64,000 nucleotides of DNA from Dryomyza anilis (Eukaryota; Arthropoda; Insecta; Diptera; Dryomyzidae): the NCBI GenBank assembly GCA_951804985.1, contig OX638130.1, positions 123,765,593-123,829,592 of the forward strand, in the 5' to 3' direction. The notes below the pieces were generated by a model that ran no database searches, was not told where the DNA came from, and worked only from the letters and a program-made list of their open reading frames with translations. The stretch's first letter is position 1; each line of letters begins with the position of its first letter. Of the stretch, positions 10,807 to 64,000 are shown piece by piece. The position numbers and the translations under genes are program-made.

Positions 10807-11434
10807 TAATGTTTTTGCTATAATCATAAATATTTTAAATTTAAGTATAAATTTTTAAGTTTTAGTTAAAATTAAAATTGTTTACAAAAAGTATTATGCA
10901 CAAAGTTTCACTAAAAATTTAAATATTTTACCAAAATTAGATTTTTTATTAACTACACTAATTTCCGACAGACACACAGTGTGCCCAAACGCCCTTAATT
11001 CGGATGACATTCATTATTTTGGAAAACACACACCGATTTTAAAATTTTAAAAAGTTTTGTATTGAGAATTTCTGAGAAAACTAAAGTTCTGAAATTGGAG
11101 ATTGTATATTTAGTTGTTATGGCGATAAAAATCAGTAAAGTTCAGATTTTGTACATGAACATTTTTTGAAAAATTGCAAAAAAAAACCAAAAGTTATCTG
11201 ATATTAAAATTTATTTTATTAGTGAAAAGCTTACATTATTATCTATAGAAAATGTGTTCAGTTGAGAAAAGCGAAAAGAGGAACACGAATTAATAGCAAC
11301 AACATTGAAAGCAAAACCGATGCGTTACTCAAATGCATTCGTTCTACCGATCTTCGGTACCACTCGTCATTCTTGCAACAAAGTTTGTTCTAAAAATAGA
11401 ACAGACAAAACTGCAACTCAGACTAATGATGGTT
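10807..11434. other. AT-rich non-coding gap
   Basis: Low-complexity AT-rich sequence up to about 11260, then a somewhat more balanced stretch. No gene or repeat is recognised. Confidence 0.4.
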
Positions 11435-11519
11435 GTGTGGTTCAGTAGCCGAGCACATAGCGTGCTTGACTACCAACTCCCGACGTTTCTGACGGCATGA
11501 GTTCGAGCCCCAACCACAC
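11435..11519 (+). ncRNA. tRNA-like cloverleaf head of a small element
   Basis: GTGTGGTT (11435-11442) pairs perfectly with AACCACAC (11512-11519) as an 8-bp acceptor-like stem. Inside is a hairpin combining GTAG/CTAC and AGCAC/GTGCT. It is followed by a weak CCG/CGG arm and a T-arm-like GGC/GCC with GTTCGA in its loop. TGGTTCAGTAGC resembles an RNA polymerase III A box and GAGTTCGAGCC a B box. It is not a normal tRNA gene, since arm lengths are wrong and no clear anticodon stem exists. It is more likely the Pol III head of a SINE-like element that also contains the downstream ribozyme. Confidence 0.5.
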
Positions 11520-11563
11520 CGAAATCGTATATACGAATTATTTGTTGTTATCAATACGTCATC

Positions 11564-11634
11564 ACACAAAGATCACTGATGAGGATACTTGGCTGTATCC
11601 GAAACGGTCCGTATGATCATTGCCTGTATTGTGT
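11564..11634 (+). ncRNA. Hammerhead ribozyme (type I topology, short helix III)
   Basis: The core is complete. CTGATGA is at 11576-11582. Helix II is GGATAC/GTATCC (11583-11588 with 11595-11600), with a TTGGCT loop and the required G-C closing pair. GAAA is at 11601-11604. Helix III is very short (A11604 C G G against C C G T11612, around one T). The triplet before the predicted cut is GTA (11611-11613). The inner part of helix I is GATCA (11571-11575) with TGATC (11614-11618). An outer 6-bp segment, ACACAA (11564-11569) with TTGTGT (11629-11634), is separated by an asymmetric internal loop. In natural hammerheads that is where contact with loop II occurs. Self-cleavage after A11613 is predicted. 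Similar short-helix-III hammerheads are known from Penelope-like elements and animal retrozyme-like repeats; membership here is inference. Confidence 0.8.
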
Positions 11635-11639
11635 TTTCA

Positions 11640-12574
11640 ATTTGTTGTTGTTTCTTCAAACACTTTCAATAGAACTTAGCCAGTCATTTAGATGTCGGCT
11701 GTCTTCCAAAAGAGTACATCGAAAAAACCTTCTAATAAATTATCTTGTTTAGTTTAAAAGATATAACAAAAGATATACAAATTTCAAAAAACACTCTGTA
11801 GATAAACCACGTTTATTAATTATAAAAAAAGACTCATTAAAATCAATAAAATTTAAAGACTAGCTATAAAATAGTATCTACCACCAAACCACATGCCATG
11901 GCTGTGACATTAAAAATACACCGAAAAAAAAATTAAACACAATGCTGTGCTAATGTTGCTGCTCCTGCTGATGCTGATGCTTTGCTTGAAGATGAAATTG
12001 CGCTCTTATAAAACCGCAACATTAATGCACTTAGCTTGATTTAACGTCATCCATCGCAGCTCATTTATCATGCCAGCAGTGCCGCCTGTCCGCCTGTCCG
12101 CCTGTTATCCTGTCCTCCTGACATCGTTGTGCCACAGAGAGCATGTTGTAAGAAAACGGGAAAATTAAAAAAAAAATAAAACTAAAACGGTGCGGAAAAA
12201 ACTGAACAAAAACGGACGCCGCTTATAACATGCTCTACTACGAGAGTAATACGTAGTATACAAAGTAATCCAATTTTTATCGTGGTAATTTTGCAACGGA
12301 AAGCTTTGCGTTTTTGCAAAAACACTCCCACATATAGACACAAAACACCCACATTCACAAAGAGCCAAAGGCAACGAAGACCGACCTACCGACCGACCGA
12401 GGATGACCACACGATGAAAATTCAATTTTGTTGATTACTTGCAGAGGTTTCTGGGGATAAATGGCAACACTGCTGTTGCTGCTGCTACAGCTGTTGGAGG
12501 TGTACCAGTGTCGAATACAGGGCAAGGTCTCCAAATTTTATGAAATTACAAAAATATTTTTGATAAATTTAATT
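11640..12574. other. Unique-looking island, no gene recognised
   Basis: AT-rich up to about 11880, then more balanced sequence with GCTGCTCCTGCTGATGCTGA-type runs, short CCGCCTGT repeats (12083-12105) and ACCGACCGACCGA (12388-12400). No frame with a recognised domain. It resembles fly intronic or intergenic DNA. Confidence 0.4.
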
Positions 12575-12768
12575 TTGTGATTTTTTTACTTGAATTTTCA
12601 GTGAAAAATTGAATTTTTTTCATAAAATTTGTATTTTTTAGTGAACATTTTGATTTTAATGAAAAATTTGATTTTTAGTGAGAAATTTAAATTTTAGTGA
12701 AAAATTAATTTTTATTTAAAATTTTAATTTATAGGTGAAAATTTTAAAGTTTAGTGAAAAATTGAATT
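12575..12768. repeat. 19-bp satellite, array 1 (left part)
   Basis: Degenerate tandem units of the type GAATTTTTAGTGAAAAATT, the reverse complement of the arrays at 16.2, 27.0 and 63.6 kb. It continues at 14158-14400 on the far side of the LINE, so the LINE landed inside the array. Confidence 0.8.
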
Positions 12769-14157
12769 GAGTGCTTCAACACGGCGAAGCCAGCGCAATC
12801 CTTGTCGGTGTCGTCTCAAGTCAACTCACATTGTTTAAGACCGAACTACCGTGGGATCAGCCTACTCAATATCGCATACAAGGTTCTATCGAGCGTATTA
12901 TGTGAAAGACTGAAGCCCATCGTCAACAGACTGATTGGATCTTATCAGTGCGGCTTCAGACCTGGAAAGTCCACCATAGACCAGATTTTCACATTGCGCC
13001 TAATCCAGGAAAAGACCCTAGAAAAACAGATCGACACCTACCACCTATTAGTCGACTATAAAGCCGCCTTCGACACTCCGATAAGGGAACGATTATATGC
13101 CGCAATGTTCGGTATACCTGCGAAACTTCTAAGGCTTTGCAGGATGACCCTGAGCAACACACGTTGCTCAGTGAGAATAGGAAAAGACCTCTCCGAGCCA
13201 TTTCATACCGAACGAGGTTTCAGACAGGGTGACTCCCTATCGTGCGACTTTTTTAACTTATTGATGGAGAAAATAGTTCGAGCTGCCGAACTCCGTCAAA
13301 GCGGCACTATCATCAACAAAAGTGTCATGCTGCTCGCATATGCCGACGATATTGATATCATTGGCAGGAGCACACGAGCAGTCAGCGCAGCATTCTCCAG
13401 ATTGAAGAAAGAGTCGCGTCGAATGGGTCTAGCGGTGAACGAGGACAAGACGAAGTTCCTTGTGTCAACAAGCAAAAAAGAGTCCGTGCGTCTTGGACAA
13501 AAAGCTGATTTTGACACCCACAAGTTCGACATTGTGAAGGACTTCGTCTATCTGGGATCCAGCGTAAACAGCAACAACGACGTCAGCCTGGAGATCAAAT
13601 GGAGAATAACTCTTGCCAACAGGTGCTACTTTGGACTCAGTAGGCAATTGAGAAGCAGAGCCCTCTCTCGCCGTACAAAAATAACGCTCTACAAGTCTCT
13701 CATCATGCCCGTCCTACTTTATGGTGCAGAAACATGGACGCTGGCCTCCACCGATGAGAGAGTACTGGGAGCGTTCGAGAGAAAGATTCTCCGTAAAATC
13801 TTTGGCCCTATCTGCTTTGCTAACGAGTATCGAATCAGGATGAACCACGAACTGTATGAGTTTTTCGACGACATAGACATAGTCAAGCGCATCAAGATCC
13901 AGCGGCTTCGCTGGCTAGGTCATGTCGAACGAATGGATGAAAACACTCCAGCCAAGAAGGTGCTTGAATCGAAACTCGAAGGTAGACAGCGTAGAAGAGG
14001 GCGTCCAAATCTGCGTTGGCAAGACCAAGTTGAGGACAACCTGGCAACGCTTGGTATTTCTAACTGGCGTCAGCGCGCGCAAAGCAGATCCGACTGGCGC
14101 GGCTTGATCTCAGCGGCCAAAACCGACCCACGGTTGTAAGGGCCATTTAAGTAAGTA
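12769..14157 (+). mobile_element. 5'-truncated non-LTR retrotransposon (LINE)
   Basis: A 1.39-kb insertion in the 19-bp satellite, consisting of the 3' part of a LINE. It retains most of the reverse transcriptase and the C-terminal region but no endonuclease. Only about 18 bp follow the stop codon, ending in TAAGTAAGTA. A very short 3' UTR with a short tandem tail is typical of RTE-type LINEs, but the clade is not certain. AAATTGAATT occurs at both junctions and may be the target duplication, though the satellite itself contains this word. The 5' truncation fits target-primed reverse transcription. Confidence 0.8.
12802..14139 (+). CDS. LINE reverse transcriptase, C-terminal part
   Basis: An open frame of about 445 codons with no ATG start. 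It is open back to 12766 and simply begins at the truncation point; recognisable homology starts near NYRGISLLN (residues about 14-22). Motifs of non-LTR RT follow in order: GFRPGKSTIDQ, the palm motif VDYKAAFD (residues 84-91, catalytic D85), RQGDSLS, and the catalytic YADD (180-183). Then come NEDKTKF and YLGSSVN, and a C-terminal region with WLGHVERMD and RRRGRP near the end. It lacks the N-terminal apurinic endonuclease and the start of the RT, so it cannot be autonomous. The frame has no stop or visible frameshift, which suggests a fairly young insertion. It also has noticeably higher GC than its satellite surroundings. Confidence 0.8.
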   Translation: MSVSSQVNSHCLRPNYRGISLLNIAYKVLSSVLCERLKPIVNRLIGSYQCGFRPGKSTIDQIFTLRLIQEKTLEKQIDTYHLLVDYKAAFDTPIRERLYAAMFGIPAKLLRLCRMTLSNTRCSVRIGKDLSEPFHTERGFRQGDSLSCDFFNLLMEKIVRAAELRQSGTIINKSVMLLAYADDIDIIGRSTRAVSAAFSRLKKESRRMGLAVNEDKTKFLVSTSKKESVRLGQKADFDTHKFDIVKDFVYLGSSVNSNNDVSLEIKWRITLANRCYFGLSRQLRSRALSRRTKITLYKSLIMPVLLYGAETWTLASTDERVLGAFERKILRKIFGPICFANEYRIRMNHELYEFFDDIDIVKRIKIQRLRWLGHVERMDENTPAKKVLESKLEGRQRRRGRPNLRWQDQVEDNLATLGISNWRQRAQSRSDWRGLISAAKTDPRL

Positions 14158-16194: not shown

Positions 16195-17450
16195 TCACTA
16201 AAAATTCTATTGTTTATTAAAAATTTAAATTTTCACTAAAAATTCAAATATTCACTAAAAATTCAAATATTCACTAAAAATTCAAATTTTCAATAATAAT
16301 TCAATTTTTCACTAAAAATTTCATTTCTCAATAAGAATTCCATATTTCAGTAAAAATTCAATTTTTCACTAAAAATTCAATTTTTCTTTAAAAATTCAAT
16401 TTTTCACTAAAAATTCAATTTTTCTTTAAAAATTCAATTTTTCACTAAAAATTCAATTTTTCTTTAAAAATTCAATTTTTCACTAAAAATTCACTAAAAA
16501 TTAAATTTTTCACTAAAAATTCAATTTTTCACTAAAAATTCAATTTTTTACAAAAATTAAATTTTTTACAAAAATTTCAAAATTTCACTAAAAATTCAAA
16601 TTTTCACTAAAAATTCAATTTTTCACTAAAAATTAAATTTTTCACTAAAATTTCAAATTTTCACTATAAATTAAATTTTTCACTAAAAATTCAAATTTTC
16701 ACTACAAATTCAATTTTTCACTAAAATTTCCATTTTTCAATAATAATTCCATTTTTCAGTAAAAATTCAAATTATCACTAAAAATTCAATTTTTCACTAA
16801 AAATTATTTTGTACACTAAAAATTAAGTTTTTTACTAGAAATTAAATTTTTCACTAAAACTTAAAATTTTCAATAAAAATTCAATTTTTCATTAAAAATT
16901 CAATTTTTCATTAAAAATTGAATTTTTTACTAAAAATTCAATTTATCACTAAAAATTAAATTATCACTAAGAATTAAGCACTATAAATTAAGTTTTTTTT
17001 ACTAAAAATCCAATTTTTCACTAAAAGTTCAAATTTTCACTAATTATTTAATTTTTCACTAAAAATTAAAATTTTCACTAAAAATTAAATTTTTCACAGA
17101 AATTAAAATTTTCACTAAAAATTCAAATTTTCACTACAAGATCAATTTTTCCCTAAAAATTCCATTTTTTACTAAAAATAATCAAATTTTCACTAAAAAA
17201 AAATTAAATTTTCGACAAAATTTAAATTTTTCACTATAAATCAATTTTTCAATACAAATTTAAGTTTTCACTTAAAATTCAAATTGTTACTAAAAATTAA
17301 ATTTTTTACTTAAAATTAAAATTTTTACTAAAAATTTATTTTTTTACAAAAAAATTCAATTTTTTACTAAAAAAAATAAATTTTTCATTTTAATATTTCA
17401 CTAGAAAAATTATTTTTTACTGAACGTAGATTTTCAGCAAAAATTTGTAT
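16195..17450. repeat. 19-bp satellite, array 2
   Basis: About 1.25 kb of tandem units CAATTTTTCACTAAAAATT, opposite in orientation to array 1. Each unit has a dyad (AATTTTT - CACT - AAAAATT), so either strand can fold into short hairpins. The best copies, at about 16360-16500, alternate with a TTTCTTTAAAAATTCAA variant in a two-unit register. Divergence rises towards both edges. Confidence 0.9.
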
Positions 17451-27017: not shown

Positions 27018-28620
27018 TTTTATCACTAAAAATATAATTTTCGATAAAAAAAAATAACATTTTTCACTAAAAATTCAGTCTCTCACTGTTCAGTTTTTTC
27101 ACTCAAAAATATAATTTTCACAAAAAAAAAACAATATTTCACTCCAACACCAAATTTTCTTCAAAGAATCAAATTTTCACTCAAAAATCAAATTTTCACT
27201 CAAAAACCAATTTTTACTTGAAAACAAATTTCACTTAATAATCCAATTCACTCAAAAATAAATTTTTCACTCAAAAATAAAATTTTTACCCAAAAATCAA
27301 TTTTTCACTCAAAAATCAAATATTCACTCAAATATCAAAATTTCAATTATATATTAAATTTTCGCCTTATTACCAAATTTTCACTTAAAATAAAATTTTC
27401 ACTCAAAACTCAAATTTTCAACCAAATTTTCACTTAAAATCAAATTTTCACTTAAAATCAAATTTTCACTTAAAATCAAATTTTCACTTAAAATCAAATT
27501 TTCACTTAATATTCAAATTCACTCAAAAATCAATTTTTTACTCACTTGAAATCAAATTTTCATTTAACCAAATTCACCCAAAAATCAAATGTTCACAAAA
27601 AAATAATATATTCACTAAAAATCAAATTTTCACCCTAAAATGTAATTTTCACTCAAAAATCAAATTTTCACTCAAAAATCAAATTTTCACTCAAAAATCA
27701 AATTTTCACTCAAAAGTCAAATTTTCACTCAAAAATCAAATTTTCACTCAGAAACCAAATATACAATTAAAAATCAAATTTTCACCCAAAAATCAAAATT
27801 ATAATCCAAAGTAAAATTTTCACACAAAAATCAAATTTTCACTCAAAAATCAAATTTTCACTCAAAAATCAAATTTTCACTCAAAAATCAAATTTTCACT
27901 CAAAAATCAAATTTTCACTCAAAAGTCAATTTTTCACTCAAAAATCAAATTTTCACTCAGAAACCAAATATACAATTAAAAATCAAATTTTCACCCATTA
28001 ATCAAATTTTCACTCAAAAATCAAAATTATAATCAAAAGTCAAATTTTCACACAAAAATCAAATTTTCACTCAAAAATCAAATTTTCACTCAAAAATCAA
28101 ATTTTCACCCAAAAATCAAATTTTCACTCAAAAATCAAATTTTCACTCAAAAGTCAAATTTTCACTCAAAAATCAAATTTTCACTCAGAAACCAAATATA
28201 CAATCAAAAATCAAATGTTCACTCAAAAATCAAATTTTCACACAAAAATCAAATTTTCACTCAAAAATCAAATTTTCACTCAAAAATCAAATAATCACTC
28301 AAAAATAAAATTTTCAATTCAATATTAAATTTTCCCCTTAAAAACAAATTTTCACTTAAAATCAAATTTTCACTTAATAATCAAATTCACTCAAAACTCA
28401 AATTTTCAACCAAAAACCAAATTTTCACTTAAAAATAGAGTTTTCACTTAAATCAAATTTTCACTTAATATTCAAATTCACTCAAAAATCAAACTTTCAC
28501 TGAAAAATCTAAATTTTCACAAAAAAAAACAGATTTTCTTTCAAAAATTTAATTATCACTCAATACTCAATTTTACACTAAAAATAAATTTTTCGCTAAA
28601 AATTCAAATTTCCATTTGAA
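27018..28620. repeat. 19-bp satellite, array 3, with higher-order periodicity
   Basis: About 1.6 kb of the variant unit TCAAATTTTCACTCAAAAA (19 bp), same orientation as array 2. A marker variant, CAGAAACCAAATATACAAT, recurs at about 27749, 27958 and 28186. The spacings are 209 and 228 bp, exactly 11 and 12 units. Blocks of many units were therefore duplicated together. Edges are more diverged. Confidence 0.9.
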
Positions 28621-29519: not shown

Positions 29520-30415
29520 TTTTAGTCAAAATTTTTATTTTTAGTTAAGAATTAAATTTTTAGTGAGGTATTGAATTAATAATAAGGAATTGAATATGTA
29601 GTGAAAGATTTAATTTATTGTGAAAATATAAATTTTTAGTGAAAAATTGAATTTTTTATTGAAAAATTGAATTTTTATTGAAAAATTGAATTTTTAGTGA
29701 AAATTTGAATTTTTAGTGAAAATTTGAATTTTTCGTGAAAATTTGAATTTTTAGTGAAAATTTGAATTTTTAGTGAAAATTTGAATTTTTAGTAAAAAAT
29801 TTAATTTTTAGTGAAATTTGGAATTTTTAGTGAAAATTTGAATTTTTAGTGAAAAATTGAATTTTTAGTAAAAAATGTAATTTTTAGTGAAAATTGGAAT
29901 TTTTAGTGAAAAATAAAATTTTTGGTGAAAAATTTGAATTTTTAGTGAAAATTTGAATTTTTAGTGAAAATTTGAATTTTTAGTGAAAATTTGAATTTTT
30001 AGTGAAAATTTGAATTTTTAGTGAAAAAGTGAATTTTTAGTGAAAATTGGAATTTTTAGTGAAAAATTGAATTTTTAGTGAAAATTTGAATTTTTAGTGA
30101 AAATTTGAATTTTTAGTGAAAAAGTGAATTTTTAGTGAAAATTGGAATTTTTAATGAAAAATTGAATTTTTAGTGAAAAATAGAATTTTTAGTGAAAAAT
30201 TGAATTTTTAGTGAAAATTTGAATTTATAGTGAAAATTTGAAATTTTAGTGAAAATTTTAATTTTTAGTTAAAATTTAATTTTGAGTGAAAAATTTAATT
30301 TTTAGTGATAAATTTAATTTTTAGTGAAAAATTGAATTTTTAGTGAAAAATTGAATTTTTAGTGAAAAATTGAATTTTTAGTGTAAAATTGAATTTTCAG
30401 TGAAAAACTGTTTTT
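29520..30415. repeat. 19-bp satellite, array 4 (inverted)
   Basis: Units GAATTTTTAGTGAAAATTT, opposite in orientation to arrays 2, 3 and 5, so arrays 3 and 4 face each other across the 0.9-kb island. A marker variant, GTGAAAAAGTGAATTTTTAG, recurs at 30021 and 30116, 95 bp apart (5 units), showing local block duplication. Confidence 0.9.
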
Positions 30416-32210: not shown

Positions 32211-32575
32211 CATTCCTATATACCACTTTCGACCTATTAGATCTTTGATATGACCGTGCCTTAGTCGAAGCAATTTCTTAAAATTGGAGCATCATAATTT
32301 ATCATACGTTTCGTATATACGAACTAATTGTGTTTGGGATTCGAATTCATGTTGTCTCAGTTTATCTGAAATACCAATTGAATTGTCATTCCTATATACA
32401 ACTTTCGATCTATGAGATCCTTGATATGACCGTGCCTTAGTCGCAGCAATTTCTTAAAACTGGAGCATCGTAATTTATCAAACGTTTCGTATATACGAAC
32501 TGATTGTGTTTGGGATTCGAACTCAAGTTGTCTCTGTTTATCTGAAATACCAATTCAATTGTCATTCATATATGA
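32211..32575 (+). repeat. 176-bp tandem dimer
   Basis: Unit 1 (32211-32386) and unit 2 (32387-32562) both start CATTCCTATATA and contain GATATGACCGTGCCTTAGTC, the palindrome TCGTATATACGA and GTGTTTGGGATTCGAA. A third unit starts at 32563 and breaks off. GGATTCGAACTC is slightly B-box-like, but no A box is clear. Confidence 0.8.
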
Positions 32576-34200: not shown

Positions 34201-36015
34201 TGTTTACTATAGCAATCACAATACTTAGGTAACATTACACCTACCTACTATCAGAAAGTTCCTACTAAAAAAATGCCCACGTCACATAACTTTCTCTGCT
34301 GCTTTCATTTCATAAACACACTTTGATTCCATAATATTTCAACTGATTTAATTACACAAGCACTCATTGTTTGACCCATACCATTTAAAATACGCTATGC
34401 TACCCGAATGGTAATGCGGAATAACGTGTTAATAAAAGCGCTCCAAAAAAACACAAATTCGAATCGTAATTAAATTTTTAAATGTTTGACCATGTCTTTC
34501 GTGCCAACGGAAAAACAAAAAGCATAAAATAAGGATGTCAGCAAAACAAAAGTAGTGTACGTAAAAACGAGAAAACAAATGAAAGATAAACAGAATTTGT
34601 TTGTTGAATTTTTCGTTGACAAATGAACGACTGAAACTGGTTCCGTTGTGCAAACACAGAAAATCGTATATCGTGCACCGGGTGTACACCCGAACACACT
34701 GAACACCGAACAAGGTGCCATATTTAATTGAAAAATTCAGTGCTGTCAACCGAAGTTTTTCCGTTAAACAAACATAACTGGATGCAGCCATTTTCAATTC
34801 CAAACCAATTTTTTGTTAGTGCTCGGAGACCATTCAAGTTGAATGTGTTTCAAGTAACGCGTTTGATTCTGACATTCGTTTTTCTTTGGTCGTTTTTCGT
34901 TACGGTTTTGTTTTTGACTGAATCCTGGTTCAATCGTTGTCGATGCCGCTGTCATAACGACGACTGACAATTATAAATGACACTTCAGGAGCACGAAAAC
35001 AGCGTCAATTTGTAAGGCTCCCCAGCTGAGAGTCACTCAGTCTGTCCATCTATATGACTGACTGACTGTCTGTCGCTATGACGAGCTGGTACAAGATTCT
35101 AATTGATTTCTACAGAAATTTGCTAATTTCATCGCTCGTTTTCAATGAATGGTGCTGCCTTTAGTGCCGTGCCGTGCCATGCCGTTCCTGATGCTCGTCA
35201 TTCGCTCTGTTAGAATAGGGACCGATTTTCGCATCGATTCACCGACGACAATAGGGAATTCGGTAAAACGTTAGATGGTCTATTGGTCCGCCGGACGATG
35301 GATTGATTGAGTTGAAGTGCTCACATCAGAGTTCTTGTTTATTTGGTTATTTCTGTGTGCAAAAATAGGTTCACTGAACCCACTTGATTCTTCTATTCGA
35401 TCCGGTGAACCGGCGAACGCAGTAACTGTCATAAAGTGAAAAATCTTTGATATATTGATGTTGTTTGCCTTGAAGTGACGTGATTTGATTTGTGACCAAT
35501 GTATACAAATCCATTTGTATAATTAAAATACATGTTGCATGTTTATAGCACTGACTAATTTTAATATTTCTTATGTTTCACTTATAGTTTATATTAAATA
35601 TATTTTACTTACGCTCTAATATATAAATTTATGCACACATTCCACATGTCCAATTTCCAGCCAGAGTCATGTAGACAACTTTAATAGCTAAACTTAAAAT
35701 TCGTCTTTTAATATCCTATCCAGACATTTGCCATTATTCATGCTGTACATGTGAATAACCTTTTGGGCAAACGCATTTTAGTCTACTTAACGAACTTGTT
35801 AAATATTCAATTAGAGATACGACAAATTTAAGGAATTAACAGAAATTATTAAAATTTTCAAATACAAACTTTCAAGATATGACTTGAAAAATGGTAAGAA
35901 TGTATAAAAGTTTTAAGTTAGTTAAGTTTAAAATGTCGATAATTTTTCACCAACAAAATTTCAGAAGACTACCGTGTCAGTTTTAATATTTGAAGCAGTA
36001 AATTGTGACTTGAAG
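34201..36015. other. Island, no gene recognised
   Basis: 34260-35420 is balanced and unique-looking. It has frames on both strands without domains, a GTGCCGTGCCGTGCCATGCC run (35165-35184) and a CTGACTGACTGTCTGTC run (35056-35072). 35420-36015 is AT-rich. Confidence 0.35.
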
Positions 36016-36326
36016 CCGCGGCAGCTCAGTGGTTAGTGCGTTGGACTGCGAGCCGAAAGGTCCCCGGTTCAAGCCTGGACTGGGGCTAACAACATCTTTT
36101 CATAGAAACATTTTTCTATACCGCGCTACCTCTCGTCAGTAAATGGCAAACCTACGAGAGTAAAACCATTGCCTATGAAAAAGCTCTCACCCGCCGTTCG
36201 GATTCGGCAATAAACTGTAGGTCCCACCACTATGAGTCCAAATATAACACGCACAGCTCAAAAATGGTGAGAGAGCTCGACCGAAAATCTATAGAGGACT
36301 GTAGCGCCAAACTATTATTATTATAT
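36016..36326 (+). mobile_element. tRNA-derived SINE, copy 1
   Basis: About 310 bp. The tRNA-like head has an A-box-like CAGCTCAGTGGTTAGTGCG and a B-box-like GGTTCAAGCC spaced as in a tRNA gene. The body has TACCGCGCTACCTCTCGTCA, ACCTACGAGAGTAAAACC and AAACTGTAGGTCCCACCAC. The 3' end is TAGCGCCAAACTATTATTAT with a short TTA tail. Transcription by Pol III and mobilisation by a LINE are expected of the class. Confidence 0.85.
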
Positions 36327-36983
36327 AAATTGTGACTTTTTTTAAATTCTTTTTTCCTTGGACCAGCCCATTACATACGGTCATTGTTTTCCACAATTTG
36401 TATACATTTTAATAACATAGACTAGTGCTATTTTTTTTTCGTTCATTTTTTGCCGTACTTCTCAGTTCTCAAGTATATTGTTTCTTATATACTGCTTGCT
36501 CGATATGCATAAATTAGTAGACATATTTATAATATATTTATTTATAATTTTATTAATAAAAAGTTATATTTAAAAAAAAAATATTAAAAAAAAAATATGG
36601 GCTATTGCACACGAAATCGACACGCGCACATTGGGTTGAGTGCATGGAAAAGGCGTGCGTCGAAGTTTTTTGTATGTAACTTTTGAACTATAAAAGATTT
36701 TGAAAAAAGAAAAATTGTTTTTAAAACTAGACACTTTAGGGACACTGTCTGTCTGTTTGTTCCAGCATCACGTCTAAACCGCTGAACCGATGTAACTGAA
36801 ATTTTGTCACAGGATACTATGGAGTCCGGGGGGTGTCATAGGCTATATATGGGCGCGATTGGACAAAGGGCGTGGTACCTCCCATACAAACTAAACATTC
36901 CAAACGACATAACTCAGCACATACACAAGCTAAAAAGATGAAACAAAAAACTCAAATACAAAAAAAAATATACAAAAGCAACC
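36327..36983. other. AT-rich gap with a family C-like fragment
   Basis: 36720-36900 contains CTGTCTGTCTG, CCGCTGAACCGATGTAACTG and ACCTCCCATACAAACT words like those within family C (GACACGCCCACCTCCCATAC). No gene. Confidence 0.4.
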
Positions 36984-39018: not shown

Positions 39019-39461
39019 TCTATTTTTTTAAAAAGACACTTTTTCAAATCGGTTTTTTTTATCTCTCCGGGGCGTTCCGGGCCGAAGTTTTTATACTAGC
39101 ATATATCTAAATATCTGTAGTTATCAATGCTAGTGTTTTTTGCATTAGCCACACATGTTGCATCCTATTTACTAATTTTTTTTTCGAACTATTTCATAAT
39201 TTGCTACTTTTGTCGCAGAAAGTCGAACTTAAAAATATAATTTTTTAATAATTTTCTAAAGTGAATAAGAAATACATAATTTTAGCTATAATATGTGAAA
39301 ATTTCAATGTAATAACTTAACAAGAAGTAATTCAAATTAAAATTTTAAACAAGTATTCAAAAAAAAATATTAAAATTAACAAAAACCAGTTGGGAAGGAT
39401 AGATCACATGGGAAATTTTAAAGTAGGGACATTTTATAGTAAGTGTTATTATAATAGTTGT
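39019..39461. other. AT-rich gap
   Basis: AT-rich apart from a GC patch at 39066-39090. No gene. Confidence 0.4.
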
Positions 39462-39773
39462 AGTAGCGGTAGCTCAGTGGTTAGTGCGTTGGACTGCGAG
39501 CCGAAAGGTCCCCGGTTCAAGTCTGGACTGGGGCTAACAACTTCTTTTCATAGAAACATTTTTCTATACCGCGCTACCTCTCGTCAGTAAATGGCAAACC
39601 TACGAGAGTAAAACCATTGCCTATGAAAAGCTCTTACCCGCCGTTCGGATTCGGCAATAAACTGTAGGTCCCACCACTTTGAGTACAAATATAACACGCA
39701 CAGCTCAAAATGGTGAGAGAGCTCGGCCAAAGTTCTATACAGGACTGTAGCGCCAAACTATTATATTATTTAT
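39462..39773 (+). mobile_element. tRNA-derived SINE, copy 2
   Basis: Near-identical to copy 1 along its length: GGTAGCTCAGTGGTTAGTGC head, GGTTCAAGTCTGG B-box region, CTACGAGAGTAAAACC body and TAGCGCCAAACTATTATATT tail. It is among the best-preserved copies in the window. Confidence 0.85.
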
Positions 39774-45727: not shown

Positions 45728-46330
45728 TTCCTCCTTTCCTCCTTTCCTTCTTTCCTCCTTTCCTCCTTTCCTCCTTTCCTCCTTTCCTCCTTTCCACCTT
45801 TCCTCCTTTCCTCCTTTCCTCCTTTCCTCCTTTCCTCCTTTCCTCCTTTCCTCCTTTCCTCCTTTCCTCCTTTCCTCCTTTCCTCCTTTCCTCCTTTCCT
45901 CCTTTCCTCCTTTCCTCCTTTCCTCCTTTCCTCCTTTCCTCCTTTCCTCCTTTCCTCCTTTCCTCCTTTCCTCCTTTCCTCCTTTCCTCCTTTCCTCCTT
46001 TCCTCCTTTCCTCCTTTCCTCCTTTCCTCCTTTCCTCCTTTCCTCCTTTCCTCCTTTCCTCCTTTCCTCCTTTCCTCCTTTCCTCCTTTCCTCCTTTCCT
46101 CCTTTCCTCCTTTCCTCCTTTCCTCCTTTCCTCCTTTCCTCCTTTCCTCCTTTCCTCCTTTCCTCCTTTCCTCCTTTCCTCCTTTCCTCCTTTCCTCCTT
46201 TCCTCCTTTCCTCCTTTCCTCCTTTCCTCCTTTCCTCCTTTCCTCCTTTCCTCCTTTCCTCCTTTCCTCCTTTCCTCCTTTCCTCCTTTCCTCCTTTCCT
46301 CCTTTCCTCCTTTCCTCCTTTCCACCTTTC
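45728..46330. repeat. (TTTCCTCC)n, about 75 units
   Basis: About 600 bp of nearly pure 8-bp repeat, all pyrimidine on + and all purine on -. Only a few changed units occur (near 45747, 45792 and 46321). The lack of stops gives long frames on both strands, reading LLSSFPPF on + and KEERRKGG on -; these are artefacts. Homopurine-homopyrimidine mirror repeats like this can form triplex (H-DNA) structures. Confidence 0.95.
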
Positions 46331-48727: not shown

Positions 48728-49200
48728 TGTTCGAATAAGTTATTATAATTATATTAAAATCATCAAGTTATTTGCTATAACATTAATTATGCATATGCAT
48801 AAATTAGTATTAAATTTTGTGCGTCGCTTTAAGTAGCGCTAAGCATTAGTATTTTGTATGTATACCAATGCTCTCTATTTAGTACAGATTATAAGAATAC
48901 TAAATTTTGGTCTAAACCGGTTTTGACTCTTATAATTAGTTCTCTGAGAGAATGCATTGCTATATGTTAGTATGCTATATGTTAGTATGCTACTAGTTAG
49001 TAAGCAAGACCTTATGTATATAAAATATTAGCATGTCGCAGAAAATGTATGCATTTCTCGTTCACTTAAATTTTGGACTGCATACGGTGAACATTGTTAT
49101 TTAATTAATAAATTTATAATCTTTTAATTTTCAGCTTCTTTTTTTTTCTATTTAAACAAATTAAAAAATTTTGTCAAACAAATATAAAGTACTTTGTACA
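48728..49200 (+). repeat. BEL/Pao 5' LTR
   Basis: Starts TGTTCGAATAAG and ends AGTACTTTGTACA, so it has TG...CA ends in a short TGT...ACA inverted repeat. TATATAAAATA at about 49017-49027 can serve as TATA box, and AATAAA at 49107-49112 as polyadenylation signal. ATGTTAGTATGCTAT is repeated within (48964-48998). Confidence 0.95.
49017..49027 (+). promoter_or_regulatory. Putative TATA box of the 5' LTR
   Basis: TATATAAAATA lies about 80 bp upstream of the LTR's AATAAA. Its place within the LTR fits the U3/R boundary of a retrotransposon promoter. No transcript evidence is available. Confidence 0.4.
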
Positions 49201-49204
49201 TTTT

Positions 49205-49222
49205 TGGTGCCGAAACCCGGGA
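49205..49222 (+). other. Primer-binding site, tRNA-Phe type
   Basis: TGGTGCCGAAACCCGGGA begins four bases after the LTR. Over 18 nt it is the perfect complement of the conserved animal tRNA-Phe 3' end (acceptor strand TTTCGGCA plus CCA). Minus-strand DNA synthesis would start here. Confidence 0.85.
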
Positions 49223-49334
49223 ACTGATTAAGTTCACCCCTTTTTAATAAAATAATCAAATTCGAAAAATACATGCTGTATTTGCTTTGATATTAACTGC
49301 AGTTTTTTGTGCATTAAAAAATAGAACTAACGTT

Positions 49335-52300
49335 ATGGCTCTTGATAAAAGCATTGCAGAACAGCGTGCAAGTTTGGATCAACTTAAACAGTTCCACAAT
49401 ATTTTTACTAAAAAGAATAGCGCTATGAAAACACGAGGATATTTGAATGGAGTTTTGCAAGAAATTGAAAAATTGTGTACTTCATTTAAAATCAATCATG
49501 ATGCAATTTGCGCCTTAATTCACGAAAATTCCTTAAATGCTTCTGATGTTCCGTACATAGCTGATAATTGTTATTTTGAATATTGTGAACTTTATCTTGA
49601 TTTTAAAGGTGAAGTTTTGGAGTCTCTTCCAGAGACATCCACATCACCTCATGCTCTTTACAGTAGTACATTTTCACTACCAAACCGTAATGAAATAAGC
49701 ACCAACATAGAGTCTAAACTACCAAAAATTTCATTGCCTAAGTTTTCTGGAGATTATATGGAATGGGTTCCATTTCAAGATATTTATTTATCGCTTGTTC
49801 ATGATAACAATTCGCTATCTAAAATTCAAAAATTCTACTATTTGAAATGTTCATTAATTGGCGAAGCAGCTAACTTGGTAAAAACTATAAGTGCTACTGA
49901 AGCCAATTACGACTCAGCTTGGTCTATTCTAAAACGTAGGTATCACAATAAGCGTTTAATTGTGGATACACTAACTAAAAAACTATTTAATATTCCAAAA
50001 TCGGAAGGTAACTTCCAGGGAATAAAACAAATTCTTGATACAACGCAAGAATGTCTTTCATCTCTATCAAATCTTGGTGTTTCTACTACTGATTGGGATC
50101 CGCTTCTGATTTATTTAATTGCTCAGAAACTCGATCTTGATACGAGAAAAGATTGGGAACAATCATTAAAGTCTTCGACTGAAGTCCCAGCAATTGCAGA
50201 TATGTTTTCGTTCTTAGAAAGAACTTTTAGGACACTTGAATCTATTTATGAAGAGATTCCGTCTCCTTTAGTTAAAACTTCTAAAGGAAAATTTTCTAAA
50301 AATAAGAACAAAAACAACAATTTTCATTCTAACCATTTAACACGATATCAGCCATGTGCCTATTGTGAAAAGACACATTTTTTAGCAAAATGTTTTAAAT
50401 TTCTTGCCTTGTCGTCAGATTTAAAGTATGAATTTGTTACAAAAAATAAACTTTGTCATAATTGCCTTTCAGCAGGTCACAATTATAATGATTGTAAATC
50501 AACTTATCGTTGCAATATTTGTAAAAAGCAACATCACAGCTTATTGCACGTTGATGAAAATCACACGACAAATGCATCTACTTCTCAAGCTGCTGACAGA
50601 TCATTAAACAGTCATCATGAAATTTGTAGTAATAATTCCACTCATAATACGCAAATGTTTCCAAATGTGTTGCTTTCAACAATACGATTGATGATTAAGT
50701 CCACGAGTGGACAATTTATTCTCAGGGCACTTCTAGATCAGGGTTCTCAAGCTACTTTAATAACCGAAAAGGCTGTTCAACTTCTCAAACTGGGAAAAAA
50801 TCGAGTTAATTGCAATGTATCAGGCGTAGGTGATAACAGCGACACACTTTGTCGCAGCAGTGTTTTTTTAAACATATTTTCATTGCAAAATAAACAAATA
50901 TTAGAGTGCAACGCTCTTGTGTTAAACAATTTATCAGCATATGTTCCAAAGGCCTCCAAATTAAACATTTCGGTTGAAGGTATCGAAGTTGATTTTCTTG
51001 CTGATCCACATTACAATAAAGCCGATCCAATTGATTTGCTTCTTGGATCCGATGTTTTTAGTAAAATTGTTATTGCTGGTCAGTCCTTCATTCATAACCA
51101 ATTGTTTTATCAAAACACCTACTTTGGTTGGGTTTTATCTGGACCTACAGGACAAATCAATACTCAGAATGTAGTGGTGAATAATATATATTTAGAAAAT
51201 ATATTACGATCCTTTTGGGAACAAGAAGAGGTAACGTGTAAACGAGAGTTAACAACAGAAGAAGAAAATTGTGAAAAATATTTCAGTAGCACAACTAAGC
51301 GTACTTTTTCTGGTCGTTACATTGTCAATCTTCCCTTCAGATCAGCTCTGGAAAACAATTCCAATCCATCGTTGTGTAATAACCACTTTAATGCGTTGAA
51401 ACGATTGCATAATCTAGAATCATCATTTAATAAGCGACCGTCTTTTCATAATGCTTATAAGGACTTTTTACAAGAATATGAACAATTAAATCACATGTCA
51501 AAAATCGGAAAATATCCCGATGACCTCACAAATTATTCATATTTTTTGCCACACCATGGCGTTTTTAAAGAAACTAGCACTACAACGAAATTAAGAGTAG
51601 TGTTTGATGGAAGTAGTAAACTTCCTGGTTACAATTCTATTAACGATGAGTTATGTCCTGGACCTGCATTACAAAATGATATGCCTAAAATCATTACGCG
51701 TTGGCGAAGGCACAAGTTCGCTTTTAGCGCAGACATCGAAAAGATGTTTAGACAAATTCAGGTTGCTTCAGAGCACCAGAATTATCAACAAATACTATGG
51801 CGTCATAATATTAGTGATGACGTTTGCATTTATAAAATGAACACTGTCACCTATGGTACAACGTCAGCTCCATATCTTTCAATAAGGGTTCTTCAACAAT
51901 TAGCTAATGATTACATAGATATATATCCAAAAGCAGCAAAAGTTTTGCTTTTAGATTCATATGTGGATGATATAATGTCCGGCTCAGATACTTTATCAGA
52001 CGCCCTAGCATTACATAAAGACTTATGTTTGCTACTAAATAAAGGTGAATTCACTCTACGAAAATGGATATCTCATTCAGCTGAATTTATTGAAGAAATC
52101 CCACCAGATCTAAGAGAAAATTCGAATACACTTGATTTCAATGATAACAATATTGTTAAAACACTTGGAGTTCAGTGGAACACCACCTCAGATTCTTTTA
52201 CATTTAAATTGCATTTAGACGAACCTAAAAATATAACAAAACGATCTATATTATCCGATTCAGCTCGTCTTTTCGACCCATTAGGGTGGTTGACCCCCTC

Positions 52301-54620
52301 TACTGTAATTTCAAAAATATTATTTCAAAAATTGTGGTTAGCAGGAGTTGATTGGGATGATAAGGTCCCCAGTGACATTCAAACAGATTGGATAAATTAT
52401 AGATCTTCTTTGAAGCTAATTCAAGAAATCAAAATTTCTAGATGGTTTGGATATCGGCCAGATACAACATTTGAATTGCACTGCTTCTGCGATGCCTCAC
52501 AAGCAGCGTATGCTGCAGTTGTTTATGCAAGAATTCAGTCTAGCAGCGAAGTATTTATAAATATTTTACAAGCTAAATCTAAGCTAGCGCCTGTAAAAAC
52601 AATATCCATTCCTAAGCTAGAGCTTTGTGCTGCTACCTTGTTAGCTAAACTTGTATCAACAGTCAAAGAATCATTTGATTCAAATTTAATTTCAAATATA
52701 ACGTACTGGAGCGATAGTACCACTGTCTTAAGTTGGATAAGACAACCGCCAGCTCGTTGGAGTGTTTATGTTGCCAATAGAGTCGGAGAAATTCAAAGAT
52801 ATACAAACATAGTTCAATGGAAGTATGTACCATCGGCTGAAAACCCAGCAGATTGTGCTTCACGAGGTAAAATGCCAGCCGATTTAAAAGATTTTAATTT
52901 ATGGTGGCATGGCCCACAATTTCTGAAATTGCCATCGTCTTCATGGCCAAAAAATATTTCTGATTATCAGACTACTTTAGAAGAGCGAAAACATAAAGTT
53001 ATATTGCATGCAACGCAAGTGGTATTCTACCCCGATATTTTTCTTAAATTCTCCTCTTTCAATAAGTTACTTCGTGTTGGTACGACGTGCTACAGATTTA
53101 TTCGAAACTGTAAGGAAAATAAAAATTGTAAAGATGTTGGTAGTCTTACATCAAAATCAGTCCGAACAACTATGTATTCGTTCGTTAAAATAATTCAAAA
53201 GATTGACTTTAATGCAGATTACAATAAACTTTTGTTGCATAAAGAAATCAGCAACAAAACCTTGCTTAAACTCATGGCATTTATTGACGAATCAGGTTTA
53301 CTGCGAGTGGGAGGTCGATTGCAAAATTCTCAATTTTCTTTTGAAAAGAAACATCCACTACTTTTGACTAAGCATAACCCATTGTCAAAATTAATAATTT
53401 TAGATGCACATGAGAGAACATTGCACGGTGGTATAACTTTAACAATGTCTTATGTGAATCGTACATTTTGGATTTTATCAGGCACTCAATTAGCCAAAAC
53501 ATTATTAGGAAAATGTATGATTTGTTTCAAATATACTGCGAAAACTTCGCAACAGATAATGGGCAATCTACCACCTGTTCGTCTCAATGTCACGAGGCCC
53601 TTTAAGCACAGTGGAGTAGATTACGCTGGTCCCATTTCCATTAAAAATTCTTCACTTAGATCTGCTGTCATATCTAAAGGATATATTTGTCTATTTGTGT
53701 GTATGGTCACAAAAGCTTTACATTTGGAAGTTGTGTCTGACTTGACCACTACCGCGTTTTTAGCAGCTTTTAGACGGTTTGTGTCAAGAAGAGGTAGTTG
53801 CACAGATATTTACTCTGATTGCGGCACTAATTTTGTTGGCGCATCTAAGGAATTGAAAGTACTCTTACATAAATCAGAATCATCATTGCCAAATGAACTG
53901 CTTGACACTCTTTCGATGATTGGTACTGATTGGCATTTTATTCCTCCTGCTTCTCCAAATTTTGGTGGTCTTTGGGAAGCAGGTGTAAAATCGGTTAAAT
54001 ATCACCTAAAACGAATTATAGCTGATCGAATTTTAAGCTTTGAAGAACTTGCCACATTACTTTGTCAAATAGAGGGATGTCTGAATTCCAGGCCCCTTTG
54101 TCCGCTCACATCTGATCCTAGAGATACTGATGCCTTAACACCAGCACACTTTTTGATAGGGGAACCAACCAATTGCTTACAGGAAGAAAATTTGTTAGAT
54201 GTAAACATTAATCGTTTGACCCGATGGAAATCTATTGAGAAATTAAAACAACATTTTTGGAATCGCTGGTATTCCGAATATTTAAATAGATTGCAGGCTA
54301 GACCAAAATGGCTGCACGCGAAACCAGATGCTAAAATAGGAGATTTGGTCCTTATTGCCGATGAACGATATGCTCCTGGACAGTGGGCATTAGGAAGGAT
54401 TAGTGACATTCACCCTGGAGCTGACGGACGTGTTCGAGTAGTTTCTATTATTTCAAAAAACAAACTTATTAAAAGACCAATTTCTAAAATCTGTTTTTTA
54501 CCTTCAGATGAACCTATTAATGAAACTGGATATAAAAAATCGTTGTCTAAATCCACGGATAATGAGATGGAGCCTACTGAATCGCGCTGTGAGTCGGAGC
54601 ATAGCGAAGTTTTGACTTGA
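49335..54620 (+). CDS. BEL/Pao Gag-Pol polyprotein
   Basis: 1,761 residues in one frame with no stop. The frame is open further upstream, but the first in-frame ATG is at 49335 and is chosen as start. Gag: DUF1759-type domain about residues 130-310, then cysteine/histidine knuckles at 341-353, 374-387 (C-x2-C-x4-H-x4-C) and 393-405. Protease (A17/DUF1758 type): catalytic LLDQGSQ with D468. Reverse transcriptase: LRVVFDGSS near 751 and catalytic YVDD at 876-879. RNase H: acidic quartet D1053, E1096, D1127, D1173. Integrase: HHCC zinc site H1359, H1364, C1394, C1397, then DDE triad D1429, D1495, E1548. C-terminal DUF5641 domain about 1675-1745. All key catalytic residues are present. The product would assemble into virus-like particles, be cut by its own protease, copy the RNA and integrate the DNA. 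No env is present. Confidence 0.95.
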   Translation: MALDKSIAEQRASLDQLKQFHNIFTKKNSAMKTRGYLNGVLQEIEKLCTSFKINHDAICALIHENSLNASDVPYIADNCYFEYCELYLDFKGEVLESLPETSTSPHALYSSTFSLPNRNEISTNIESKLPKISLPKFSGDYMEWVPFQDIYLSLVHDNNSLSKIQKFYYLKCSLIGEAANLVKTISATEANYDSAWSILKRRYHNKRLIVDTLTKKLFNIPKSEGNFQGIKQILDTTQECLSSLSNLGVSTTDWDPLLIYLIAQKLDLDTRKDWEQSLKSSTEVPAIADMFSFLERTFRTLESIYEEIPSPLVKTSKGKFSKNKNKNNNFHSNHLTRYQPCAYCEKTHFLAKCFKFLALSSDLKYEFVTKNKLCHNCLSAGHNYNDCKSTYRCNICKKQHHSLLHVDENHTTNASTSQAADRSLNSHHEICSNNSTHNTQMFPNVLLSTIRLMIKSTSGQFILRALLDQGSQATLITEKAVQLLKLGKNRVNCNVSGVGDNSDTLCRSSVFLNIFSLQNKQILECNALVLNNLSAYVPKASKLNISVEGIEVDFLADPHYNKADPIDLLLGSDVFSKIVIAGQSFIHNQLFYQNTYFGWVLSGPTGQINTQNVVVNNIYLENILRSFWEQEEVTCKRELTTEEENCEKYFSSTTKRTFSGRYIVNLPFRSALENNSNPSLCNNHFNALKRLHNLESSFNKRPSFHNAYKDFLQEYEQLNHMSKIGKYPDDLTNYSYFLPHHGVFKETSTTTKLRVVFDGSSKLPGYNSINDELCPGPALQNDMPKIITRWRRHKFAFSADIEKMFRQIQVASEHQNYQQILWRHNISDDVCIYKMNTVTYGTTSAPYLSIRVLQQLANDYIDIYPKAAKVLLLDSYVDDIMSGSDTLSDALALHKDLCLLLNKGEFTLRKWISHSAEFIEEIPPDLRENSNTLDFNDNNIVKTLGVQWNTTSDSFTFKLHLDEPKNITKRSILSDSARLFDPLGWLTPSTVISKILFQKLWLAGVDWDDKVPSDIQTDWINYRSSLKLIQEIKISRWFGYRPDTTFELHCFCDASQAAYAAVVYARIQSSSEVFINILQAKSKLAPVKTISIPKLELCAATLLAKLVSTVKESFDSNLISNITYWSDSTTVLSWIRQPPARWSVYVANRVGEIQRYTNIVQWKYVPSAENPADCASRGKMPADLKDFNLWWHGPQFLKLPSSSWPKNISDYQTTLEERKHKVILHATQVVFYPDIFLKFSSFNKLLRVGTTCYRFIRNCKENKNCKDVGSLTSKSVRTTMYSFVKIIQKIDFNADYNKLLLHKEISNKTLLKLMAFIDESGLLRVGGRLQNSQFSFEKKHPLLLTKHNPLSKLIILDAHERTLHGGITLTMSYVNRTFWILSGTQLAKTLLGKCMICFKYTAKTSQQIMGNLPPVRLNVTRPFKHSGVDYAGPISIKNSSLRSAVISKGYICLFVCMVTKALHLEVVSDLTTTAFLAAFRRFVSRRGSCTDIYSDCGTNFVGASKELKVLLHKSESSLPNELLDTLSMIGTDWHFIPPASPNFGGLWEAGVKSVKYHLKRIIADRILSFEELATLLCQIEGCLNSRPLCPLTSDPRDTDALTPAHFLIGEPTNCLQEENLLDVNINRLTRWKSIEKLKQHFWNRWYSEYLNRLQARPKWLHAKPDAKIGDLVLIADERYAPGQWALGRISDIHPGADGRVRVVSIISKNKLIKRPISKICFLPSDEPINETGYKKSLSKSTDNEMEPTESRCESEHSEVLT

Positions 54621-54680
54621 CTAAATCACTCCCAACGATAGGCCGTCTTGTTATTACCTGGAGCAAGAACAGCTGTTCTT

Positions 54681-54691
54681 ATGGGGGAGAA
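54681..54691 (+). other. Polypurine tract
   Basis: ATGGGGGAGAA ends directly at the 3' LTR. It is the expected primer for plus-strand DNA synthesis. Confidence 0.85.
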
Positions 54692-55165
54692 TGTTCGAAT
54701 AAGTTATTATAATTATATTAAAATCATCAAGTTATTTGCTATAACATTAATTATGCATATGCATAAATTAGTATTAAATTTTGTGCGTCGCTTTAAGTAG
54801 CGCTAAGCATTAGTATTTTGTATGTATACCAATGCTCTCTATTTAGTACAGATTATAAGAATACTAAATTTTGGTCTAAACCGGTTTTGACTCTTATAAT
54901 TAGTTCTCTGAGAGAATGCATTGCTATATGTTAGTATGCTATATGTTAGTATGCTACTAGTTAGTAAGCAAGACCTTATGTATATAAAATATTAGCATGT
55001 CGCAGAAAATGTATGCATTTCTCGTTCACTTAAATTTTGGACTGCATACGGTGAACATTGTTATTTAATTAATAAATTTATAATCTTTTAATTTTCAGCT
55101 TCTTTTTTTTTTCTATTTAAACAAATTAAAAAATTTTGTCAAACAAATATAAAGTACTTTGTACA
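54692..55165 (+). repeat. BEL/Pao 3' LTR
   Basis: 474 bp, identical to the 5' LTR by eye except for ten instead of nine T in the run near 55103-55112. It supplies the AATAAA at 55071-55076 for the element transcript. Confidence 0.95.
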
Positions 55166-61337: not shown

Positions 61338-61625
61338 TTATAATAATAATAGTTTGGCACTATCGTTCTATAAGAACTTAGGCTGTGCGTATTATATTTG
61401 TACTCAAAGTGGTGGGACCTACAGTTTATTGCCGAAGCCGAATGGCGGGTGAGAGCTTATCATGAACAATGTTTTACTCTCGTAGGTTTGCCATTTACTG
61501 CCGAGAGGTAGCGCGGTATAGAAAAATGTTTCTATGAAAAGATGTTGTTAGCCCCAGTCCAGGCTTGAACCTGGGATCTTTCGGCTCGCAGTCCAACGCA
61601 CTAACCTTGAGCTACCGACGCTAAA
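61338..61625 (-). mobile_element. tRNA-derived SINE, copy 3
   Basis: Minus strand: GGTAGCTCAAGGTTAGTGCG head, GGTTCAAGCCTGGAC B box, TACCGCGCTACCTCTCGGCA and CTACGAGAGTAAAAC body. The ATAATAATAATAGTTTGGC stretch at the + strand left edge is the inverse of the family's 3' end. Slightly shorter than copies 1 and 2. Confidence 0.85.
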
Positions 61626-62160: not shown

Positions 62161-63574
62161 AATAAAAAAAAATACATTTTGATTTCGAACATAAATCAAA
62201 TTAATTCCGGTGCAGTTATTTTTGTTAGCATGATAAAGTTTTTTCGATTTCCACAATGTACTCGAGAATCTTGAATATAAACACCAAATATTGGACATGA
62301 AGTGAAACGCTTTCTAAACCTCCAACTATTTTGATGTTTATAATGAAAAGAGTACTTTGAGTAAGTAATACCACTAAAAAAATTGTAAAGACAACTAAAG
62401 CTTAAGCGAAAAATTTAACAAGCAGCTCGTTACACTTTGGGCCCACAACACTATTCCATAACTACAAGTACTACAAGGAGCCAATTTTTCATCGTTTATT
62501 TCAACAATAAAAACGTCGTTGTCGACGTAAAAACCTCCAGTATGTTGAAAAAGAGTGGGTTGTACAACTGGTTTCTGTTGTTCTGCTGGGTGTTGATATT
62601 GCTGCTGAACACGTTAAATGTCCTTTAAAAAGACATTAGAACATTTTTGTTATGGCATTTAAAGGATTACGCTTAATGTGATAAAATGTCAACGTGACTG
62701 GAAATTTAAATATCACGACGAAGACCCTCGCAACGAGCCACACACTATTAACTGGTGCTCTTTGTGGCGTGGCATAAGTGGTGTGGAGTGGTGTGGCTGG
62801 TCGGTTTCATGGGTGGCTCTTGGAGGGTTCATGGTCGAAATAGAGCAGATGTAGCAGCAGCCATGGCCCATGGGCCAATAAATGCTAAACCAATACAGTT
62901 AAAATGAAAGTATTTATTGAGATGAGGCAGGCGGCGAAGACAACACGTTCACGTTCACTAAGTTTGTTGGTTCAGGGTCGTTCGAATAGAGCGACTTTCT
63001 TTCGTTCGTTCGCTCGTTCGTTCAGATACAAGATGCAGCAGACGTAGCGCACGTGATGGGGTGAAAAGTAGATTTTTTTGAAGCTGTTGATAGGTTTATC
63101 TGTAATCTGTGCAACTAGCAAAAAGCAATATTTGAAAAAATTGCTATATTTTGAGAACAGAGCAACATGCAACACCTGAGTGGTTGGCATGTCATGAAAT
63201 TGTCAGATATGGCGTGAAATTATGAAAAATGGTTATGCTGTTTGTCACTTCTGATAGGTTAGAGAATGTATGAACATAATGATGTTAACAGTTTAAAGTC
63301 ACAAATAACTGAAACATTTTATAACTTGTATTAAATGAATATTTTAATCTTATTTGGCGTCATTTATCATTTTGAAAATAGACATATTTTAAATTCATTG
63401 CATTAAATATTTAAAATGTTTGAGAAATTTGTTATGCTTACTTTGTGGATTTAAAATGCTAATATATTGTTGGAGACATTTCAAAGTTTTAATATGAATA
63501 ATGCAAAATATACGTACTATGTGCTTTGAATACTAAACAAAAACCGAAGAGTTGTAACATTTTTTTTTTACTTA
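62161..63574. other. Island, no gene recognised
   Basis: 62400-63060 is balanced, with GGTGTGGAGTGGTGTGGCTG (62780-62799) and TCGTTCGTTCGCTCGTTCGT (63002-63021). A 63-codon + frame at 62437-62628 ends with a hydrophobic stretch (YNWFLLFCWVLILLLNTLNV) but has no recognised domain. The rest is AT-rich. Confidence 0.35.
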
Positions 63575-64000
63575 AAATTAAATTTTTCACTAAATATTAA
63601 AATGTTCTCTAAAAATTCAATTCTTCCCCTATAAATTTTTTCTAATTTTTCACTAAAAATTCAATTTTTCACTAATAAATTCAATTTTTCACTAAAAATT
63701 CAATTTTTCACTAAAAATTCAAATTTTGACTACAAATTCAATTTTTCACTAAAAATTCAATTTTTCACTAAAAATTCAATTTTTCACTAAAAATTCAATT
63801 TTTCACTAAAAATTCAATTTTTCACTAAAAATTCAATTTTTCACTAAAAATTCAATTTTTCACTAAAAATTCAATTTTTCACTAAAAATTCAATTTTTCA
63901 CTAAAAATTCAATTTTTCACTAAAAATTCAATTTTTCACTAAAAAATTCAATTTTTCACTAAAAATTCAATTTTTCACTAAAAATTCAATTTTTCACTAA
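63575..64000. repeat. 19-bp satellite, array 5, open at the window end
   Basis: Units CAATTTTTCACTAAAAATT, same orientation as array 2. From about 63735 to the end they are almost identical, with one unit bearing an extra A near 63943. The array runs off the window. The sharply lower divergence than in arrays 1-4 suggests recent expansion here. Confidence 0.95.

Follow-up and report, generated by a model that had tools for sequence, protein, structure and literature searches.

Introduction

Which kind of element carries the hammerhead ribozyme motif found in the genome of the fly Dryomyza anilis, and does the ribozyme take part in the spread of that element? The motif lies in a stretch of 64,000 nucleotides, the whole of which was analysed and is referred to here as the window. 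As far as the accessible text of Perreault et al. (PMC3088659) goes, about 40% of hammerheads have pseudoknots linking stems I and II, and the hammerhead of an Aedes repeat has been described in a dimeric form. Metazoan non-LTR retrozymes have units of 150–450 bp in the portion of the primary report available to us (PMC7229834). A review of animal retrozymes, likewise available in part, states that they have no conserved motif hinting at their mobilisation, and its account implies that their transcription and copying are unsettled (PMC7761336). In this study, the motif was examined in the window and throughout the host genome. We estimate a probability of about two in three that the surrounding sequence, 11271–11738, is a 5′-truncated copy of a non-autonomous, apparently non-coding retrozyme of the animal non-LTR type.

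Results

The hammerhead motif

Read from outer helix I to helix II, the + strand of 11564–11634 is ACACAA-A-GATCA-CTGATGA-GGATAC-TTGGCT-GTATCC, and it continues after GTATCC as GAAA-CGGTCCG-TA-TGATC-ATTGCCTGTA-TTGTGT. Its parts are the following.

11564–11634, + strand: type I hammerhead ribozyme motif (sequence, random scan, genome cores, between-family covariation)
11571–11575, + strand: 5′ strand of inner helix I, GATCA, with its partner TGATC at 11614–11618
11576–11582, + strand: core CTGATGA, identical in family 2
11583–11600, + strand: helix II, GGATAC/GTATCC, with loop TTGGCT at 11589–11594 (compensated pairs between families)
11601–11604, + strand: core GAAA (direct reading)
11604–11612, + strand: minimal helix III, ACGGTCCGT, self-complementary, which could form a dimer helix
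11619–11628, + strand: internal loop of helix I, ATTGCCTGTA (direct reading)

The type I signature of CUGANGA, GAAA and a UH cleavage site appears here as CTGATGA, GAAA and GTA, together with three core helices, an open end in helix I and covariation between the two families described below. Inner helix I has 5 bp, helix II has 6 bp and outer helix I, beyond a 1/10-nt internal loop, has 6 bp. Cleavage is presumably 3′ of A 11613, in the GTA triplet at 11611–11613 (+ strand), by the general rule for hammerheads. GCC at 11622–11624 in the internal loop is complementary to GGC at 11591–11593 in loop II, a possible tertiary contact judging from the letters; in family 2 the corresponding loops carry GCCAA opposite UUGGC, a longer version of the same complementarity. 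Monomer helix III consists of A-U, C-G and G-C pairs capped by a GUC triloop, and ACGGUCCGU is self-complementary (4+4 bp with U-U in the centre; the 11-mer duplex amounts to -13.3 kcal/mol). The first-pass annotation had described a complete motif with a minimal, dimer-favouring helix III; direct reading of the core bases and the three helices, and the self-complementarity of helix III, bear out both statements. Self-cleavage by this motif would be expected from its sequence.

The same annotation had judged a chance origin very unlikely, and the numbers agree. First-order Markov sequence modelled on the window's dinucleotides contained 143 loose motifs in 1360 Mb; nine of these had a helix I of at least 5 bp with a helix II of at least 6 bp, and none added a helix III of at least 2 bp. 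When the 64-kb window was scanned on both strands with a motif descriptor, the single motif at 11564–11634 came up, with no core passing the scan apart from that at 11576.

A repeat family of about 600 nucleotides

When locus L001 was compared by BLAST with 29 other loci, similarity began near 11271 and stopped near 11669 or 11738, which delimits the following copy.

11271–11738, + strand: window copy of the unit of about 600 nt, 5′-truncated, running through the ribozyme and ending at the second of two preferred 3′ ends (BLAST)

The host genome searched has 69 contigs, among them six of 82–131 Mb, and totals 656.6 Mb, which agrees with the 'fly-type' label of the first-pass annotation. The 43-nt ribozyme core, with up to three mismatches, occurs at 305 places (152 and 153 on the two strands), which upholds the earlier view that the motif sits inside a repeat; the reversed core pattern, run as a control over the whole genome, gave none. 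Among the 100 core places listed, 65 were exact. Further copies came from two DNA similarity searches with 740 and 780 first-look candidates, 40 being scored in each. The unit is about 600 nt long (599 nt with 40% GC in locus L006), and no stop-to-stop frame of at least 100 amino acids overlaps 11271–11738. Copies are both dispersed and arranged in tandem arrays, as at locus L070, with head-to-tail spacings of 549–608 nt among exact cores on contigs C1 and C5 and of 601 nt for one pair of one-mismatch cores on C1. At G000:C4:3902727-3902914, two exact cores lie in opposite orientation with about 145 bp between them. A scan of viral contigs with the pattern gave 0 matches.

Diagnostic sites for subfamilies were defined on 26 loci chosen by whole-unit similarity. 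They number 0/71 in the ribozyme against 10/358 in the rest of the unit, a difference that is no more than suggestive of the ribozyme being specially conserved between subfamilies.

Covariance models and predicted folds

Rfam 15 gave no match at the gathering score in the whole window, no hammerhead and no tRNA at E<=10 in 11400–11700, and no hammerhead, again at E<=10, in locus L010, whose hammerhead is that of the family majority. With the type I model RF00163, 73 of the 64835 first-look candidates in the fly's own genome were scored and 0 matches resulted; none came from any of 14 control genomes either. A missing covariance-model score had been named beforehand as a sign against the ribozyme; it is indeed missing with Rfam, but the result does not discriminate, because the same model is silent in 14/14 controls.

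The isolated 71-mer is predicted to fold no more stably than its shuffles (z -0.59; 55/200 at least as good), and its best fold, at -16.2 kcal/mol against -12.3 for the hammerhead fold, is not a hammerhead. Monomer helix III hardly forms in any tested context. In longer linear context the window copy forms helix II at 0.89–0.97, and its inner helix I reaches about 0.55. Circular folds were scored for helices in L006, L054 and L043 (L012 was not scored): the ribozyme helices form in L006, with helix II at 0.98, and scarcely form in L054 and L043, with 0.11 and 0.02; both of these have helix II mutations. The circular folds of 3/3 units are more stable than dinucleotide shuffles (40 each), with z of -5.0, -3.8 and -3.0.

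A second hammerhead family and covariation

A genome pattern with a different second helix II pair matched 13 places, against six for the reversed control; three of the 13 form a second family (L091–L093), three are family-1 variants and seven look chance-like by eye. The three members of family 2 (251 bases each, 79–84% alike) have diverged from family 1, with which they have a short TTTTCAATTTGTTGTT-like tail in common. Their core is identical to that of family 1. Helix I pairs GACCG with CGGUC or CGGUU, the helices II differ from those of family 1 and contain one or two unpaired positions around the same loop letters UUGGC, and helix III is ACAGCUGU; a self-complementary helix III is thus common to the two families.

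Within family 1, the first 30 loci were examined except L012 and L025, which have deletions; in these 28 the helices do not covary beyond shuffles, as would be expected if one master gave rise to dead insertions that drift neutrally. Twelve family-1 and three family-2 loci were then aligned, giving 13 distinct rows; pairing holds in 92.2% of cells, and 6/14 pairs are changed on both sides. Four of five covariation measures are attained by 0/500 shuffles, the fifth (further pair types) being ordinary at 252/500. Compensation falls in helices I and II, including 2/5 inner helix I pairs; the third pair of helix III dropped out of the test through an alignment gap. Because one of the six pairs relies on a single family-1 row, the signal is best counted as five base-pair changes, and these are common to related rows rather than many independent events. 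Decay of the copies without covariation, the other warning sign named at the outset, is what is seen inside the family, whereas comparison with family 2 does reveal covariation.

These data bear on the reading that the motif is hammerhead-like but has no catalytic role, for which the silence of Rfam, the absence of covariation within the family and the misfolding of the monomer could be cited. Such a reading has to accommodate the lack of any equal motif in the random sequence and a second family with different helices round an identical core, and we regard it as scarcely credible. The random scan and the covariation between families speak against a chance motif in particular.

A tRNA-like module

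Upstream of the ribozyme lies a further feature of the unit.

11430–11523, + strand: tRNA-like module with paired ends GTGTGGTT/AACCACAC, A box at 11446 and B box at 11501

The two boxes are 55 nt apart, and random sequence matching the unit in composition would contain 0.01 such pairs in 600 nt; the pair is absent from the mutated L006 unit. ARAGORN reported no tRNA at default settings and made six calls when relaxed, among them a tRNA-Ser at 11432–11521. Within the unit, the module varies most, with 19/97 diagnostic sites in the same 26 loci, and B-box forms are retained in both subfamilies (GTTCGAGCC and GTTCAAATCC). Depletion of T runs, expected for Pol III, reached P<=0.05 in 1/5 units. 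The boxes suggest that the module could direct Pol III transcription. The SINE-like Schistosoma element SMalpha has a Pol III promoter.

Copies of a tRNA-derived SINE begin with a tRNA-like head; here 3/69 mapped loci start at the module's first bases, a weak recurrence, and a three-locus cluster somewhere is expected by chance.

Other A/B-box pairs in the window, at 39470/39515 (+) and 61614/61570 (-), both fall inside another repeat family (36010–36327, 39458–39772 and 61382–61617; about 93–94% alike) that looks like a tRNA-derived SINE. A tandem repeat of two 176-bp copies at 32211–32573 contains 40 nt that match 11498–11537 (B box, paired end and GTATATACGAA hairpin) at 80%.

Circularly permuted copies and their ends

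Copy ends were mapped on the 599-nt L006 unit for 69 non-redundant loci, 21 of an initial 90 having been removed as duplicates of place or array; for eight multi-piece loci the outermost ends were used. Because 30 of the 90 loci were chosen by exact ribozyme match and 30 by similarity of the ribozyme region, copies without a ribozyme are under-sampled. The copies are circularly permuted, full laps running from unit position q1 to 2, q65 to 84, q87 to 84 and q569 to 79, and 22/69 loci are longer than 1.02 units. The 5′ ends are ragged and scattered round the whole unit, and the 3′ ends gather at two places, with 7/69 loci outside both groups.

11669, + strand: first preferred 3′ end (...CTTTCAA), 28/69 loci at q589–599 or 1–10
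11738, + strand: second preferred 3′ end (...ACATCGAAAAAACCTTCT...), 34/69 loci at q65–89

No insertion end falls at the cleavage site among the 69 loci, 30 of the original 90 having been chosen by a pattern spanning that site. Some 5′ ends seemed to share a start at the ribozyme, but this point coincided with a deletion in the reference copy, and the ends scattered once another reference was used. Target-site duplications are at best short and weak (mean best match 5.93 against 5.33 for swapped pairs, standard error 0.21, in 40 hand-delimited loci). Few private variants are common to the laps of one insertion, except in the L070 array and L086; this is consistent with one master and would be the same for a circle or a uniform array.

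The permutation requires a circular or head-to-tail template, and ragged 5′ ends together with preferred 3′ ends indicate reverse transcription. The copy shapes therefore suggest traces of a reverse-transcribed circular or head-to-tail RNA, and spread through circular RNA. The permuted copies, like the length of the unit and the tRNA-like module, go beyond what the first-pass annotation had described.

Two other explanations meet the evidence at this point. In one, a tRNA-derived, SINE-like element moves as linear RNA, the hammerhead being a passenger or a trimmer of the transcript, and permuted or long copies derive from linear transcripts of genomic tandem arrays. Such arrays are present, including that at L070, as are the A and B boxes and the weak cluster of 5′ ends at the start of the module; however, most permuted copies have the module in their interior, linear transcripts of this sort would be cut by an active ribozyme, and the helices covary between families. 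We consider this explanation unlikely, though it keeps real weight. In the other, a satellite-like repeat spreads at the DNA level, for example as extrachromosomal circular DNA, with an incidental ribozyme. Arrays and circular permutation would follow naturally, but two sharp groups of 3′ ends with ragged 5′ ends are unexpected from random breakage of DNA circles, and this explanation appears very improbable.

Other repeats in the window

Directly downstream of the hammerhead repeat, 12766–14139 holds a LINE-like frame of 457 amino acids with a reverse transcriptase domain. An LTR retrotransposon occupies 48728–55165, with LTRs 99.8% identical and an open frame of 1789 amino acids; pieces matching DUF1759, Peptidase_A17 and reverse transcriptase place it in the BEL/Pao type. 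Arrays of a related 19-bp unit (TCACTAAAAATTCAATTTT type) occur in both orientations at 16195–17373, 27096–28611, 29520–30407 and 63564–64000, and a TTCCTCCT array of 75 copies (99% matches) at 45728–46330.

Discussion

The preferred reading, a non-autonomous retrozyme, suggests the following life cycle. Transcription of head-to-tail copies, perhaps driven by Pol III at the tRNA-like module, would come first. The hammerheads would cut 3′ of 11613, most probably when paired as dimers by their self-complementary helix III. Dimer cleavage is the likely mode because both families have such a helix III and, association costs aside, the predicted energies sum to -34.7 kcal/mol when two family-1 hammerheads share it and to -34.6 when two monomers each take their best fold. 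Cleavage would free monomers of about 600 nt, which host tRNA ligase would circularise, a step adopted from what is described of animal retrozymes in the accessible part of PMC7229834. A reverse transcriptase borrowed from another element would then start at either of two sites on the circle and run for up to more than one lap, giving permuted insertions. The circular RNA stage is conjectural, and the permuted copies fit it.

As far as the available portion of PMC7229834 allows comparison, the element resembles metazoan non-LTR retrozymes in having non-coding repeats, both dispersed and tandem, that carry a type I hammerhead, a GC content below 50%, a stable predicted circular fold and no protein frame. 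It differs in its unit of about 600 nt (the 150–450 bp of those elements being an observed range and not a strict definition), in the internal tRNA-like module and in the two groups of 3′ ends, and circles are here a prediction. By description, it is also like the repeat-type hammerheads of Aedes aegypti, which are type I and lie in dipteran interspersed repeats, and in both cases loop III is able to pair completely in a dimer (PMC3088659, accessible part). Schistosoma SMalpha, as cited in the part of PMC8490949 available, is similar by description in being SINE-like with a type I hammerhead, in another host. With tRNA-derived SINEs the element has in common A and B boxes 55 nt apart, dispersal and the lack of a long frame, and it departs from them in the internal position of the module, in copies exceeding one lap and in the ribozyme. 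On the best reading, the tRNA-like module and the larger unit set it apart from the animal retrozymes described so far; no fly retrozyme with a tRNA-like module was found in a literature search covering titles, the openings of abstracts and few subscription papers.

A more specific proposal, put forward tentatively and rather against the odds, is that of a self-contained retrozyme: an RNA circle of about 600 nt, equipped with a tRNA-like Pol III promoter of its own, that cleaves only as a dimer. Were this so, permuted insertions would be expressible wherever the circle had opened, the two 3′ ends would be two entry sites for the borrowed reverse transcriptase and, with cleavage confined to dimers, productive source copies would be only those insertions that exceed one lap.

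Hundreds of cores, permuted insertions, two 3′ ends, the module and a second family in one genome make the promoter and the priming site of such an element testable, and the same features do so for dimer cleavage and the shape of the template. If the template is circular RNA, the ends of the insertions mark where reverse transcription began.
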